A DNA stretch of 41,935 nt, from positions 1 to 41,935 of the forward strand of contig JABIAY010000063.1 of the NCBI GenBank assembly GCA_018653085.1, in the 5' to 3' direction. Positions 35,396-41,935 of the stretch are shown here, piece after piece. Every line of letters starts with the position of its first letter. Positions within the stretch are counted from its first letter, which is position 1. The notes below the pieces were generated by a model. The model saw nothing but the letters and a program-made list of their open reading frames with translations, did no database searches and was not told the origin of the DNA. A program made the position numbers and the translations under genes. The DNA is from Nitrospina sp. GTDB lineage: Bacteria > Nitrospinota > Nitrospinia > Nitrospinales > VA-1.

Positions 35396-35445
35396 CCCCA
35401 CTAGGCGTGGGGCCAGCACTGCATTGCCCGTCAAGCAGACTGAAT
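35396..35445 (+). repeat. Interspersed repeat, diverged copy after the HDOD gene
   Basis: The hairpin CCCCACTAGGCGTGGGG (35396-35412) is followed by CCAGCACTGCATTGCCC. It matches the start of the copies at 35838 and 37850 read on the minus strand. The rest of the unit is diverged. It begins 2 bases after the HDOD stop. Confidence 0.65.
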
Positions 35446-35619: not shown

Positions 35620-35838
35620 AGCATTCGTGCCCCGTAGGGGTAGAAGCATCTCGCTTTTGAGCTTTTTCAGCCGAGGTAACTATTTGCTAGCCAAATAAAG
35701 CTATTGCCAGTTGGGTCCAGCGTCACGCTGGCGCCTAGTGGCACCTTAGCAGGTGAGGCAGATAGCAAGAGCTCGTTGAGCCGAGAGAACGTTTGCTCGC
35801 CAGAAAAAGCTATTGCCCGTTGGCCCCACGCCTAGTGG
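35620..35838 (-). repeat. Two tandem copies of the interspersed repeat
   Basis: Read on the minus strand, the first unit (35838-35743) begins with CCACTAGGCGTGGGG, has GGGCAATAGC and CTCGGCTCAACGAGCTCTTG, and ends CACCTGCTAAGGTG. The second (35742-35620) begins CCACTAGGCGCCAGCGTGAC, has ACTGGCAATAGC, TTACCTCGGCTGA and the hairpin CCCCTACGGGG, and ends GCTAAGG. The order matches the copy after nuoN. The last codons and TAG stop of the FAD reductase gene lie inside the first unit. Confidence 0.8.
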
Positions 35839-37757: not shown

Positions 37758-37850
37758 TAGCCACCGGTAGCAGGTAGCAAAGACTCTTTGGGCCGAGACA
37801 ACTTTTTTTAGCCAATCAAAGTCACTGCACATTGGCCCCACGCCTAGTGG
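37758..37850 (-). repeat. Interspersed repeat copy between fxsA and the methyltransferase gene
   Basis: On the minus strand it begins CCACTAGGCGTGGGGCCAAT, which includes the fxsA TAG stop. AAAGTTGTCTCGGCCCAAAG, AGTCTTTGCTACCTGC and ACCGGTGGCTAATGG follow. It fills the whole gap up to the methyltransferase ATG and supplies the sequence where its ribosome binding site must lie. Confidence 0.8.
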
Positions 37851-38242
37851 TCCCTAAAAAAGAAGTACGGTTGTCCCGATTGAATTCTATTTTTAGTAAC
37901 ATTCAAAGCTATTTGTTTGAACATGCCACGGGTGAGCGGGGTCATAATAAGGAGTCCGATCACATCCGTCACCACCCCGGGGGTAATGAGGAACATACTG
38001 GCTACACCCATCACCGCGCCGTTCAGGACTTCATCGTTCGGGGCTTCCCGCGACTTGAGTTGCCTCTGCATTTTCTCAAAGACCTCTTTGCCGTGACTGC
38101 GGCTGACAACAATCCCGACCAGGAACGTGAGCATGATCAACGAAACCGTATTGAGGATGCTGATCGAATCACTGACAAATTTCAATCCGTATATCTCAAT
38201 CCCTGTGCCCAGGGCAAAAAAAGCCGTAACCGGTAAAAACAT
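37844..38242 (-). CDS. fxsA: FxsA-family membrane protein
   Basis: This 132-residue protein matches FxsA (suppressor of F exclusion): an N-terminal helix pair with GTGIEIYGLKFVSDSISILN, GIVVSRSHGKEVFEKMQRQL, then APNDEVLNGAVMGVASMFLI and TPGVVTDVIGLLIMTPLTRG. It is an inner-membrane protein whose biochemical role is not established. AAGG lies 8 bases before the ATG at 38242; an in-frame start 69 bases upstream would add a non-homologous hydrophilic tail. The TAG stop falls within a repeat copy. Confidence 0.85.
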   Translation of the reverse strand: MFLPVTAFFALGTGIEIYGLKFVSDSISILNTVSLIMLTFLVGIVVSRSHGKEVFEKMQRQLKSREAPNDEVLNGAVMGVASMFLITPGVVTDVIGLLIMTPLTRGMFKQIALNVTKNRIQSGQPYFFFRDH

Positions 38243-38337
38243 TTTATGATCCTTAATTAACAAGTTAACCCAAGTAGACTGAACTTTAACCATAGCATGG
38301 TCGGGATTCACCGGAAAGCAAAAACCATTTCATCAAA

Positions 38338-38487
38338 ATGCCACCAAATATCCGGCCGGATTCCGAACTTTTATAAAGAAACCCCGGCTCAAAATCAGGG
38401 CATTCGATGCTGGGGAATATTTATGCCGCAATGGGAAAAAATGCGGAAGCCGCAGACGAGTTTGCCAAAGCCACAAAGAGCCCATGA
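38338..38487 (+). pseudogene. Remnant of a TPR protein C-terminus
   Basis: One frame reads PPNIRPDSELL, a TAA at 38374-38376, then RNPGSKSGHS and MLGNIYAAMGKNAEAADEF, which fits a tetratricopeptide repeat well. It ends KATKSP at a TGA (38485-38487). The upstream part of the gene is missing: the fxsA 5' region lies there. No ribosome binding site precedes the ATGs. This is most likely the decayed tail of a TPR gene. The rest of the 38243-38722 gap holds a 50-bp repeat copy and nothing else I can name. Confidence 0.5.
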
Positions 38488-38549
38488 TTCACAAAAAAAC
38501 ACAAAGCCCTTAAGTGCCGGTTTATCAAAAGTTTTTACCCCCCCCCCGC

Positions 38550-38600
38550 GAATGAGAGGGGTTGCGCTCAAATGTATAAAGAGTTAGATTCCCATTGTGT
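38550..38600 (+). repeat. 50-bp repeat, copy 1, upstream of the collagen-like gene
   Basis: The shared core is AATGTATAAAGAGTTA (38571-38586), preceded by a GGGG-TTGCGCTC stretch and followed by a GATTCCCATTGTG stretch. The second copy is at 40099-40147. Each lies about 120-170 bases before a gene for a secreted protein, so it may be a shared regulatory site. Confidence 0.6.
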
Positions 38601-38722
38601 ACTGTAATCAATGCCTCTGTATTGCTTCGTTCCTCTCATATTTCTTTTGAGACGGAATGTTTTCCAAATAAAAAACAAATTTTTGGTTATCGTTAAAATT
38701 CTATTACATGGGGAGTAAAATT

Positions 38723-40027
38723 ATGCGACGCCTGCCTGTAGCCGTACCTCTATTCACGGTTCTGTTTTTCATTGTTAGCCTGACCGGCAATGTGTTGATC
38801 GCCGACCCAACTTTTTCCAGCCTTGCGTTCGCGCAGAAGGGCAAGGATAAAAAGGATGACAATGATGAAAAAAACGAACTGAAAGGCAACAAGCGATTGC
38901 GTGAAGCAGTGAGTGAACTGCAAACCACAACTGTCGATCTGCAAGATCAAATTAATACCATTGAATTGTTGGAGGGACCAAAAGGGGATACAGGGCCCGC
39001 AGGACCGACAGGTGCAACGGGACCACAAGGTGTAGTGGGAGCAACCGGACCACAAGGTGTAGCCGGTGCAACCGGACCCCAAGGTGCTACCGGATCAGCA
39101 GGGGCTGATGGTACCGATGGCGCAACAGGCGCTACCGGTCCGCAAGGACCGCAAGGTACTACCGGATCAGCTGGTGCTGATGGTGCCGATGGCGCGACAG
39201 GTGCTACCGGTCCACAAGGACCGCAAGGTGCAACGGGATCAACTGGTGCTGATGGTGCCGATGGCGCGACAGGTGCTACCGGTCCACAAGGACCGCAAGG
39301 AACTACGGGATCAGCGGGTGCTGATGGAACCGATGGTGCAACCGGTGCTACCGGGCCGCAAGGACCCCAGGGTGACACCGGTCCCGCAGGGGCTGATGGC
39401 ATAAGTGCATCCTGTTCCGTAGCGGATGATGGTAAAGGCACGGCAATCCTGACCTGTCCCGATGGGACTACCGCCAGCCTCGTGGCAAATTGGGATGGCT
39501 TTCTTGATTCAATTCTGGCCAGCGAAGCGGAAGGCGATCAGATCAACGCCTGGCTCGGCACACCGGACCAGGGTTGGTTGCTGTGCTACCGCCGTAGCAC
39601 CGATGGAACCTCTACATCAACATTTCACAGCCAATGTGATAACAAGGGCGCCACCGTCACGATAATCACCTTGACCAACGGCAAAAAAATTGGTGGATAC
39701 GCCGCTAGCCAGTGGAATCATACCGGTTATACGGGAAACAGTAGCAACTTCCTGTTTTCCCTGACCAACAACTTCAAACACATTCCACCCGGAACAAATA
39801 CAGGGCCCTACTACCAGTATAGCCATCTTAGCTTCGGCCCCACTTTTGGCGGCGGTCACGACTTTTACACCAACCTTGGCTCCAGTAGCAGCAGTACCTA
39901 TTGCAATTTTGGCTTTACCTATCAATGTCGGGTAGGGGCTTTCGGTTCCACAACCTGCCGCAATGACTTCTGTGGAGAGTACCGACCGACACTGGCTGAT
40001 GTCGAGGTCTTCTACAAGGGTAATTAA
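38723..40027 (+). CDS. Secreted collagen-like protein with C-terminal TLDc domain
   Basis: This 434-residue protein has a signal peptide (about 1-37, cleavage after AFA). A charged coiled-coil stretch follows (about 38-84), then 48 uninterrupted Gly-X-Y triplets at 85-228. Within these, residues 121-216 are four near-identical 24-residue units. A short [14 protein letters not shown] linker leads to a TLDc-like domain (about 270-432): [69 protein letters not shown] and a final DVEVFYK. Eight cysteines (231, 245, 288, 305, 394, 402, 412, 417) fit disulfides outside the cell. It likely forms a trimeric surface fibre. GGGGAG with 7-base spacing fixes the start. Confidence 0.88.
39083..39370 (+). 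repeat. Four 72-bp tandem repeats in the collagen-like gene
   Basis: Four units of 72 bp encode G[AT]TGS[AT]GADG[TA][13 protein letters not shown]. They are nearly identical at the DNA level, with GATGGCGCAACAGG/GCTACCGG blocks. The unit is a multiple of three, so gain or loss of units changes fibre length without breaking the frame. The same unit occurs in the second collagen-like gene at 41700-41935. Confidence 0.85.
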
Positions 40028-40098
40028 ATATTGAAACGTTGGGAGCGGCACCTCTTAAGGTGTGGGTCCCGACTCTCGACACTCTTTGCACCCCCCAC

Positions 40099-40147
40099 CA
40101 ATGGGGGATTGCACCCGAATGTATAAAGAGTTACATTCTCGCTGTGC
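40099..40147 (+). repeat. 50-bp repeat, copy 2, upstream of the STN-domain gene
   Basis: GGGGGATTGCACCCGAATGT begins the matching part at 40103, followed by ATAAAGAGTTACATTC and TCGCTGTGCAA. It matches copy 1 at 38550-38600 with scattered differences. It lies between the collagen-like and STN genes in a 288-base gap that has no other gene. Confidence 0.6.
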
Positions 40148-40271
40148 AAGGCATGTCAGAGTTATTGTGAGAAGTAAATAAGTGTAGCGTTAAAGGGCGA
40201 AATATCTGATGTTTTGAGGGTTGCCCACTCTGATTGCGTTGTTATTGCTTTTCTTTTCAATATTTTTTATC

Positions 40272-40277
40272 TATAAT
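40272..40277 (+). promoter_or_regulatory. Possible -10 element for the STN-domain gene
   Basis: A perfect TATAAT lies 39 bases before the ATG at 40316. No good -35 hexamer is at 16-18 bases; TTGCTT is 21 bases upstream. Confidence 0.35.
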
Positions 40278-40315
40278 CGGTTTAGGAAATATTTCTCGGT
40301 ATGTGGAGGATCGGG

Positions 40316-41074
40316 ATGAAACGTTTTATCCAGACAGGGATTGTACTTGGAGCCGGGTTTGTGCTGTGGCAGGTGTCTGCCGATGCGCGTTTTCTCGACT
40401 TGAAAAAACAGGAGCAGGCTCCGGCTCCCAGAGTGACTCCTGCTCCCGTTACACCCAATCCCACTTACAAATCCAAAACCGCACCGGATGGTATCAGCCT
40501 GCAGTTTGAGGACCTGACCCTGATTGACGTTTTAAGAAACGTTCAGGAAGAAACCGGTATTTTGTTTTCCATCGACCCGTCTCTTGAAACCGTTCCTTTC
40601 AGTGCCCGCATTCAGGCCGATGATTGGGAAACGGCGATACGCCAACTTTTAAAAGGATTCAGCCGGGTAGAAGTCTGGACAGACAATCTTGAAACCAGCC
40701 GGGTCTGGCTGTTATCAGGAGGCAAGAACGTCCAGACCGCGCAAAAAGCTAAAGCGAATACGCCTAGGCAAGCGAGGGCAGTTCCTCAACGCCGATTCCG
40801 TTCCGCTCCAGTCCCGGCTCCGGCAGTGGTTCCCGCGCCAGTAGCCAACGCTCAAATCAAAATTGAAGATCTTCCGCCGCATATCCTTTTCGAGCCGGGA
40901 GTTTTGACTTTCTTTAAATCCAAAGGCATCGCGCTTCCCGCTAACGTGAAGAACATGTTCGGTCCCAACCTGGAAGGGTTGCCGGCCAATATGCCCATCT
41001 CCCCGCATATCCTGAACGACCCGACCTTCAAAGGCTTCCTCTCATCAAAAGGAATCCAGGCCCCTAAAGCTTAA
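40316..41074 (+). CDS. Secreted STN-domain protein with duplicated C-terminal motif
   Basis: This 252-residue protein has a signal peptide (cleavage near ADA-R25) and a Pro/Ala-rich linker (35-50). An STN-like domain (secretin and TonB receptor short N-terminal) spans about 60-135, with ISLQFEDLTLIDVLRNVQEE, GILFSIDPS and WETAIRQLLKGFSRVEVW. A second Pro/Ala linker (150-178) leads to a tail with two related motifs: PHILFEPGVLTFFKSKGIAL (188-207) and PHILNDPTFKGFLSSKGIQ (230-248). No secretin barrel follows, so it is a stand-alone periplasmic STN protein. GGAGGA with 5-base spacing supports the ATG at 40316 over one at 40301. It lies between two collagen-like genes. Confidence 0.8.
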   Translation: MKRFIQTGIVLGAGFVLWQVSADARFLDLKKQEQAPAPRVTPAPVTPNPTYKSKTAPDGISLQFEDLTLIDVLRNVQEETGILFSIDPSLETVPFSARIQADDWETAIRQLLKGFSRVEVWTDNLETSRVWLLSGGKNVQTAQKAKANTPRQARAVPQRRFRSAPVPAPAVVPAPVANAQIKIEDLPPHILFEPGVLTFFKSKGIALPANVKNMFGPNLEGLPANMPISPHILNDPTFKGFLSSKGIQAPKA

Positions 41075-41281
41075 GCAAACACAGCTCCTTCTTCCTTAGA
41101 CAATGGAACTACGTCCTCTCCGATTATTAAGCAATGAAAAGGCACCACAAACCTGAGTATTCGGTGTTCCCTCAAAAAAGACTGTAAATTTTGCCCTGAA
41201 AAACTATCGGTTTTTCAAAGGTTTCCCCCCTCTTCACCAATCAGAACGGCCCGGTCTTCATACACATTGGGCGTTTTTTAG

Positions 41282-41310
41282 TTGCCAATACCTAATCAAA
41301 ACCCTATATT
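41282..41310 (+). promoter_or_regulatory. Sigma70-type promoter for the second collagen-like gene
   Basis: TTGCCA at 41282-41287 and TATATT at 41305-41310 are separated by 17 bases; each hexamer differs from consensus at one position. The leader to the ATG at 41433 would be about 115 nt. The remainder of the 41075-41432 gap holds only a small GAAAAACTATCGGTTTTTC palindrome. Confidence 0.65.
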
Positions 41311-41432
41311 CTTGGGCATATCTAAGGATATCTCATACTCCGCAGGATTCAATCCACGAAATCACGCACTCCTACTCAACGGGTTCTCAGGTCCAGCCCA
41401 ATTGTTCATCCATCGCCGGGGAGAATGGAATC

Positions 41433-41935
41433 ATGAACCGCCTTTCAGGAAATCCGGGTACCACCCTTTTATTTGCCCTCGTCTTTTTCATTGCCAGTTT
41501 AGTCACACCCGTTTTGATCGCCAACCCAACTTTTTCCAGCGTTGCATTTGCACAGAAAAAACTGAAAGGCAAAAAAGGCCTCGCTCAACAGGTTGATCAG
41601 TTGGAACAACAACTCGTCGATGAGGTAACTAACCTTCAACAGCAAATCACTACGATCGAATTGATTCCCGGTGCGGATGGAGCAACCGGACCACAAGGAC
41701 CTCAAGGTAATACCGGAGCGGCAGGCACTGATGGTCAAGATGGCGCAACAGGTGCTACCGGACCGCAGGGACCTCAGGGTACTACCGGATCAGCAGGAGC
41801 TGATGGTCAAGATGGCGCAACAGGTGCTACCGGTCCGCAGGGACCGCAAGGTACTACCGGATCAGCAGGAGCTGATGGTCAAGATGGCGCAACAGGTGCT
41901 ACCGGTCCGCAGGGACCGCAAGGTACTACCGGATC
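41433..41935 (+). CDS. Second collagen-like secreted protein (partial, runs off the window)
   Basis: The frame is open for 167 codons to the window edge. It has a signal peptide (about 1-41) ending [10 protein letters not shown], nearly identical to [10 protein letters not shown] in the first collagen-like protein. A coiled-coil-like stretch follows ([20 protein letters not shown]), then Gly-X-Y triplets from the [10 protein letters not shown] stretch onward, with a repeating 24-residue unit [27 protein letters not shown] with 9-base spacing precedes the ATG. It is a paralogue of the 38723 gene; its C-terminal domain, possibly also TLDc, is outside the window. Confidence 0.85.

Follow-up and report, generated by a model that had tools for sequence, protein, structure and literature searches.

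A collagen-stalked TLDc protein in Nitrospina sp. and the many-headed collagen family to which it belongs

What is a TLDc domain doing at the end of a collagen stalk, behind what looks like a signal sequence, in a bacterium? This question is raised by one gene in contig JABIAY010000063.1 of the Nitrospina sp. assembly GCA_018653085.1 (phylum Nitrospinota), whose 41,935 nucleotides, read on the forward strand, were analyzed as a whole and are hereafter called the window. TLDc has been studied as an intracellular regulator of the V-ATPase and of oxidative stress, judging from the portions of the papers at hand. The gene product, hereafter the collagen-TLDc protein, belongs to TLDc by both sequence and fold, and it is one of a family of collagen proteins in the same genome that carry different heads.

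The collagen-TLDc protein and its head

The gene lies in an open reading frame (ORF) of 439 codons from the first ATG on the forward strand. Because the leader common to the paralogues begins as M-x-R-L-P at the in-frame ATG at 38723, we prefer this start, which gives 434 amino acids; residue numbers below are those of the 439-residue form (minus 5 for the 434-residue form). Its parts are as follows:

38708..40027, + strand: collagen-TLDc gene; preferred start at ATG 38723 (434 amino acids)
38723..38833, + strand: leader common to the paralogues, a predicted Sec-type signal sequence ending in A-F-A before Q (putative cleavage site, by eye)
38834..38974, + strand: charged linker and short putative coiled coil ahead of the stalk (coil judged by eye)
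38975..39406, + strand: collagen stalk of 48 Gly-X-Y triplets (triplet count, Pfam)
39074-39399, + strand: 72-nt tandem repeat at the DNA level, within the stalk
39407..39511, + strand: linker with Cys236 and Cys250
39509..40012, + strand: TLDc domain (Pfam, AlphaFold2 model, Foldseek)

In residues, the leader runs to about 42 (by eye), a charged coil-like segment covers 43-89, the Gly-X-Y run covers 90-233, and after a linker the TLDc domain covers 269-435. The stalk is an unbroken run of 48 consecutive triplets, the number already given by a sequence-only reading of this DNA, and matches PF01391 in Pfam at E 9.7e-23; its X positions are mostly Ala or Pro, its Y positions mostly Thr, Gln or Asp, and its net charge is -10. 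The leader is hydrophobic with a conserved A-x-A by eye, and thus appears to be a Sec-type signal sequence, which argues against a cytosolic location of the protein.

The sequence-only reading had assigned the C-terminal region to TLDc from short motifs, all six of which are present in the translation, and the assignment was borne out by both profile and structure searches. Residues 232-439 match Pfam TLD (PF07534) at E 5.8e-24, with 85.3 bits against a cut-off of 24.5 and over profile positions 6-167 of 170; the genome-wide Pfam scan gave the same match at E 7.1e-24, and PF07534 was matched by all 31 aligned bacterial heads. A search of the PDB with the single head sequence gave weak matches (best mEAK-7, E 0.16), and a profile of the 31 heads found 11 sequences at E <=0.01, all of them TLDc proteins (mEAK-7, 9.6e-10; NCOA7, 1.9e-9; zebrafish 4acj, 3.8e-7; Oxr1 7fde, 0.0021). 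The AlphaFold2 model of residues 232-439, which was built on the alignment of the same 31 heads, has a mean pLDDT of 89.6 and a pTM of 0.83, the first 30 residues (linker) being at about 70. In Foldseek against the PDB, this model had 15 matches at E <=0.001 (1.6e-9 to 7e-8), which held ranks 1-15 and were all TLDc chains, with a TM-score of up to 0.82 to an NCOA7 chain (normalized by target length) and 16-18% identity to eukaryotic TLDc in the structural alignments. Against viral models, two pandoravirus proteins were matched, at E 3.1e-14 ("B-box zinc finger family protein") and 5.5e-14 ("TLD containing protein"), and no other at E <=0.001.

Kinship with fibrinogen-like proteins and ficolins was considered and rejected: of the 34 Foldseek rows at ranks 17-50, 30 are fibrinogen-like by title, but at E >=0.16 and TM <=0.27, Fibrinogen_C was matched by none of the 31 heads in Pfam, and no such chain appeared when the profile was run against the PDB to E 10. 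The resemblance of the model is a weak lead. Separately, Kelch_4 was weakly matched in three of the 31 heads (best E 0.00076).

The protein has eight cysteines (236, 250, 293, 310, 399, 407, 417, and 422). This is the count of the sequence-only reading, which had put them in the stalk; the stalk has none, and all eight lie after it. Cys293 and Cys310 are present in 31/31 aligned domains, Cys407 and Cys417 in 30/31, and Cys399 and Cys422 in 14/31, and the cytosolic mEAK7 and NCOA7 chains have no cysteine opposite the Cys293/Cys310 pair in three alignments. Disulfide bonds would pair 293-310, 407-417, and 399-422, and these conserved cysteines look structural. This bears on whether the head might be an enzyme or a redox protein, as would fit the oxidation-resistance phenotype of eukaryotic TLDc proteins. 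According to the accessible part of a published account (PMC8608904), a catalytic function was initially predicted for TLDc, and in eukaryotes the domain gives protection from oxidative stress, but the apparently structural role of the cysteines and the absence of a cofactor motif from the head, judged by eye, make such a function very unlikely here.

TLDc domains in other bacteria

Within the phylum of the window, TLDc was found in one of 77 genomes, and among 148 relatives in one, in both cases the genome of the window itself; the control genomes of the relative scan and of the two phylum scans had none, and the E. coli control of the genome-wide Pfam scan gave one match, below the cut-off, at E up to 10. 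A scan of genome contigs yielded a single close relative (L019), in a groundwater metagenome-assembled genome titled Deltaproteobacteria (G148). In the phylum of this genome, perhaps Myxococcota, 36 TLDc domains were found in 18 of 377 sampled genomes, and 30 of these 36 loci were read, many frames running past the stretch examined. The domain stands at the ORF end in 21 of the 30 and is internal in nine.

Partner domains were scanned by Pfam in three of the 30 loci and in L019, which has the same gene as L021. Stig1 repeats (L038, L019) and a hexapeptide helix (L035) precede a C-terminal TLDc, and in L037 disintegrin-like/MopE repeats precede a TLDc that is internal, with more sequence following. 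MopE-like, NHL-like, and C-lectin-like repeats were seen by eye in other loci, and a hydrophobic or lipoprotein-like start, likewise by eye, in all nine loci with a visible start (L027, L029, L031, L035, L038, L042, L045, L047, and L049). These exported-looking domains go beyond what the sequence-only reading had seen. In one genome (G177), three proteins (L035, L045, and L049) have a hexapeptide-type helix followed by TLDc, Pfam-confirmed in L035 only; this is possibly another trimeric stalk with the same head.

The head of the collagen-TLDc protein is 57% identical to that of L037 and 32-50% identical to the other aligned heads. In the maximum-likelihood tree it pairs with L037 (89/85) inside a group of 14 rows (98/96), which supports a putative transfer of TLDc between the two phyla. 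Because the tree is unrooted and made of bacterial rows without eukaryotes, it gives neither the direction of transfer nor the origin of the domain. Among the open-access papers listed in literature searches, none concerned bacterial TLDc by title or abstract start, and Pfam or InterPro entries may already list bacterial members.

A collagen family with different heads, and its genomic site

PF01391 matches 17 stretches in 11 ORFs of the genome; two of these ORFs are cut by contig ends and are possibly one gene, so that the genome has 10 or 11 collagen genes. Of the 46 genomes of the family, 20 have collagen, and this genome is the richest, with 17 stretches against 10 in the next. The leader is common to ten of the 11 ORFs: eight other leaders align to that of the collagen-TLDc protein at 48-75% identity, and the tenth (C36a) matches partly. 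The heads, by Pfam, are TLDc; Kelch; CTHRC1_C with LamG; CTHRC1_C; a right-handed beta-helix; MopE with TSP1 in two genes, one of which also has EGF; and a DUF1554/endostatin-like domain. Of the remaining ORFs, two have no Pfam head and one is cut before its head. This family with different heads was not seen by the sequence-only reading.

In the window itself, the surroundings of the gene are as follows:

37844..38311, - strand: gene for an FxsA-family membrane protein, left border of a variable site
38558..38599, + strand: left copy of the 42-nt direct repeat found on both sides of the collagen-TLDc gene (copies 81% alike)
40105..40146, + strand: right copy of this repeat
40301..41074, + strand: conserved neighbor ORF without a Pfam match (E up to 0.01); adjoins the FxsA gene in ten related genomes
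41433..41935, + strand: second collagen gene, again with the common leader; the contig ends in its stalk, inside a 72-nt repeat

Contig C77 of the assembly starts inside a similar stalk and may continue this second gene; the last 30 bases of the window recur near the start of C77, and no exact end overlap of the two contigs was found. The first half of a leader copy also stands at a contig end in the same genome (C68:13140-13259, E 3.5e-12), possibly from another collagen gene truncated in the assembly.

Across the 77 genomes of the phylum, the leader profile has matches in 18 at E <=0.001, and Gly-X-Y follows the leader in 12 of them in the loci read. No collagen run followed the match in the loci viewed of the other six (G007, G009, G014, G036, G039, and G051); four of these loci (L063, L065, L066, and L067) hold proteins without collagen, which look like chance or signal-sequence-only matches, and that of G007 (L059) is too short to score. 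Thus, 18/77 is an upper bound and 12/77 is the count used. The heads behind the leader include CTHRC1_C, DUF1554, TSP1/MopE, TIG, and alanine-zipper segments, and some consist of repeats without a Pfam match which we take to resemble YadA heads. CTHRC1_C occurs in three of the 77 genomes, all of the genus of the window; collagen followed by a CTHRC1-like C-terminal domain was seen at L004, L015, L052, and L069, in the genome of the window and in two more of the genus. At L016:685-1995, collagen is joined to a DUF1554/endostatin-like head, a pairing that resembles animal collagen XVIII. Recent exchange of the leader among paralogues was also considered and is not supported: in nine of the 11 ORFs (C36a and C77, whose starts are cut, being left out), third positions at identical amino acids agree in 26-67% of codons in 35 of 36 pairs, the exception being the C7a-C7b pair at 92%.

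The collagen-TLDc gene lies between the FxsA gene and the conserved ORF at 40301. FxsA is present in 39 of the 46 family genomes, and 18 FxsA neighborhoods in related genomes were compared. The site is empty in ten (G002, G003, G004, G007, G009, G012, G013, G020, G030, and G043), that is, the 40301 homologue follows FxsA with no intervening ORF of >=90 codons having a leader match or five Gly-X-Y triplets. In G008, FxsA and the 40301 homologue are separated by two collagen ORFs and a TPR protein, and in G014 by one collagen ORF; G010 has a leader without a Gly-X-Y run beside FxsA at a contig end, and in G001, G005, G011, G015, and G017 either FxsA or the 40301 homologue was unmatched within the stretch compared. 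The site is variable, and the heads found there differ between species.

The direct repeat was considered as an interspersed mobile element, and this was rejected, its 22-nt core having only two copies in the genome at <=3 mismatches. A 15-nt core at <=2 mismatches occurs, across all loci, in the two window copies, in L101 (the FxsA locus of G011), and in L127 (G017), the latter two with 2 mismatches each and flanks unlike those of the window. An RNA reading of the repeat was also rejected, Rfam giving no match in 37800-41935 at E up to 0.1. Elsewhere in the window, near geranylgeranyl reductase-like and methyltransferase genes, there are repeated or inverted elements at 35398-35415, 35683-35838, and 37770-37850, including 81-nt copies 77% alike and 18-nt exact inverted arms.

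These surroundings bear on two other explanations of the gene. A phage or contractile-injection tail fiber with a collagen shaft might come to mind, since such fibers carry collagen shafts and eukaryote-like heads (PMC12923769, from the section available), but we regard this as highly improbable: the protein has a predicted Sec-type leader, the neighbors tested look chromosomal (FxsA being as widespread as described above), and no homologue inside a tail-gene cluster was seen in the loci read. Neither phage or plasmid records nor viral contigs gave a TLDc match (in one pattern search of viral contigs, 34 stretches matched the pattern and 0 encoded a relative), and the only viral Foldseek matches at E <=0.001 are the two pandoravirus proteins, which are not phage. 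We give almost no credence to an assembly artefact or a contaminating eukaryotic contig. The assembly is indeed a draft of 78 contigs and the contig of the window ends inside a collagen repeat, but the leader is found on eight collagen ORFs of other contigs and in genomes of the same genus, FxsA and the downstream neighbors are arranged as in genomes of that genus, and the nearest TLDc relatives are bacterial (eukaryotic sequences being compared from the PDB only).

A proposed fiber with a ligand-binding head

We favor, with moderate confidence, the reading that the collagen-TLDc protein is an exported, trimeric, collagen-stalked fiber with a ligand-binding TLDc head, one unit of a leader-coil-collagen repertoire. 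The leader would direct the protein through the Sec pathway and the short coil would nucleate a homotrimer. Collagen triple helices rise by about 0.29 nm per residue, so the 48-triplet stalk, which would measure about 40 nm as a complete triple helix, would hold three heads at its C-terminal end, where the disulfide-bonded TLDc heads would bind a ligand carried by another cell, by a surface, or by a matrix polymer. One leader-coil-collagen chassis would thus display different heads. The sequence-only reading had similarly proposed an extracellular trimeric fiber with an adhesion or ligand-binding head; the leader (by eye), stalk, fold, and cysteine pairs agree with it, and its location, trimeric state, and ligand are here put forward as likely rather than observed.

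In other proteins, LamG, Kelch, TSP1/EGF, and endostatin-like domains serve in recognition or in trimer formation. CTHRC1_C is described as a module of this kind too (PMC7058181, in the part available). Export by the Sec route, trimerization through the coil and stalk, and the display of three disulfide-bonded heads would follow from the parts by likeness to bacterial collagens as portrayed in the available parts of PMC8968730 and PMC3368898; the protein may also pass beyond the outer membrane. Ligand binding is suggested because the heads are diverse on a common stalk and eukaryotic TLDc acts as a protein-protein interaction domain (PMC8608904, as far as its accessible text goes).

Several points weigh against this reading. 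The long hydrophobic leader could anchor the protein rather than be cleaved, and no surface anchor domain or outer-membrane secretion signal was found in the protein by Pfam, so that a periplasmic place is possible. The analysis pointed to no ligand, pocket, or catalytic site for the head. In the phylum of G148, none of the 30 TLDc loci has a Gly-X-Y run >=5 in the stretch read, and the nine internal domains are not terminal heads. As to the repertoire, the direct repeat was found in none of the ten empty sites, so that an insertion route is not indicated, and the divergence at third positions shows no trace of leaders being exchanged recently, the C7 pair apart.

The head might instead be mainly a trimerization or register cap like NC1 or C1q-type domains, the stalk then serving as a structural or matrix component that has no specific ligand. 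This would agree with the position of TLDc C-terminal to the collagen, with the modeling of CTHRC1_C heads, as in the sister proteins, as C1q-like trimers (PMC7058181, available part), and with the trimerization of E. coli prophage collagens by their C-terminal PfC domain (PMC3368898, available part). We consider it unlikely, since a coil-like segment already stands ahead of the stalk, the TLDc domains of the G148 phylum have non-collagen partners and are internal in nine of 30 loci, and the heads vary from gene to gene while the stalk is alike.

The lineage may keep an extracellular recognition repertoire like that of animal defense collagens, with one chassis, several eukaryote-like heads, a content that varies between species at sites of the FxsA-40301 type, and, in the genome with the most, about ten genes. 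On this view, TLDc that is extracellular and disulfide-bonded would be an old bacterial ligand-binding module and cytosolic, V-ATPase-binding TLDc a specialized branch, or the reverse would hold via transfer from eukaryotes. We put this forward tentatively, as possible but doubtful.

The collagen-TLDc protein is a variation on bacterial collagen-like proteins, and its CTHRC1_C sister architecture is already known, because bacterial collagen proteins with CTHRC1_C have been reported (PMC7058181, available part). The main interest lies in the exported-looking, apparently cysteine-paired group of bacterial TLDc domains and in the many-headed collagen family. The former raises the question of the role of the fold before, or besides, the V-ATPase, and offers small domains for ligand tests; the latter, with one stalk type and many eukaryote-like heads in one bacterium, provides naturally occurring bacterial collagens that bear functional caps.

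Ficolins, collectins, and C1q also place globular recognition heads on a collagen stalk. The likeness is one of build, and homology is not indicated, the fibrinogen-like Foldseek matches being sub-threshold and Fibrinogen_C being absent from all 31 heads. Eukaryotic TLDc proteins (NCOA7, OXR1, mEAK7, and TBC1D24/Skywalker) share the fold and the Pfam family, but they are intracellular and several bind the V-ATPase (PMC8608904, accessible part), whereas the present protein looks exported, has conserved cysteines, and is fused to collagen. The TLDc domains of the G148 phylum are the nearest by sequence, at <=57% identity (L037), and have the same cysteines, but differ in lacking a collagen run and in being partly internal, as described above. 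Bacterial collagen-like proteins (Scl1/2, BclA, and E. coli prophage collagens) likewise have a collagen stalk with terminal non-collagen domains, but here a common leader and coil are combined with varied C-terminal heads, and a TLDc head is unmentioned in the available parts of the two sources (PMC8968730, PMC3368898). With respect to CTHRC1 and the bacterial collagen-CTHRC1_C proteins, two sister genes of this genome carry CTHRC1_C, and the collagen-TLDc gene has TLDc in its place.
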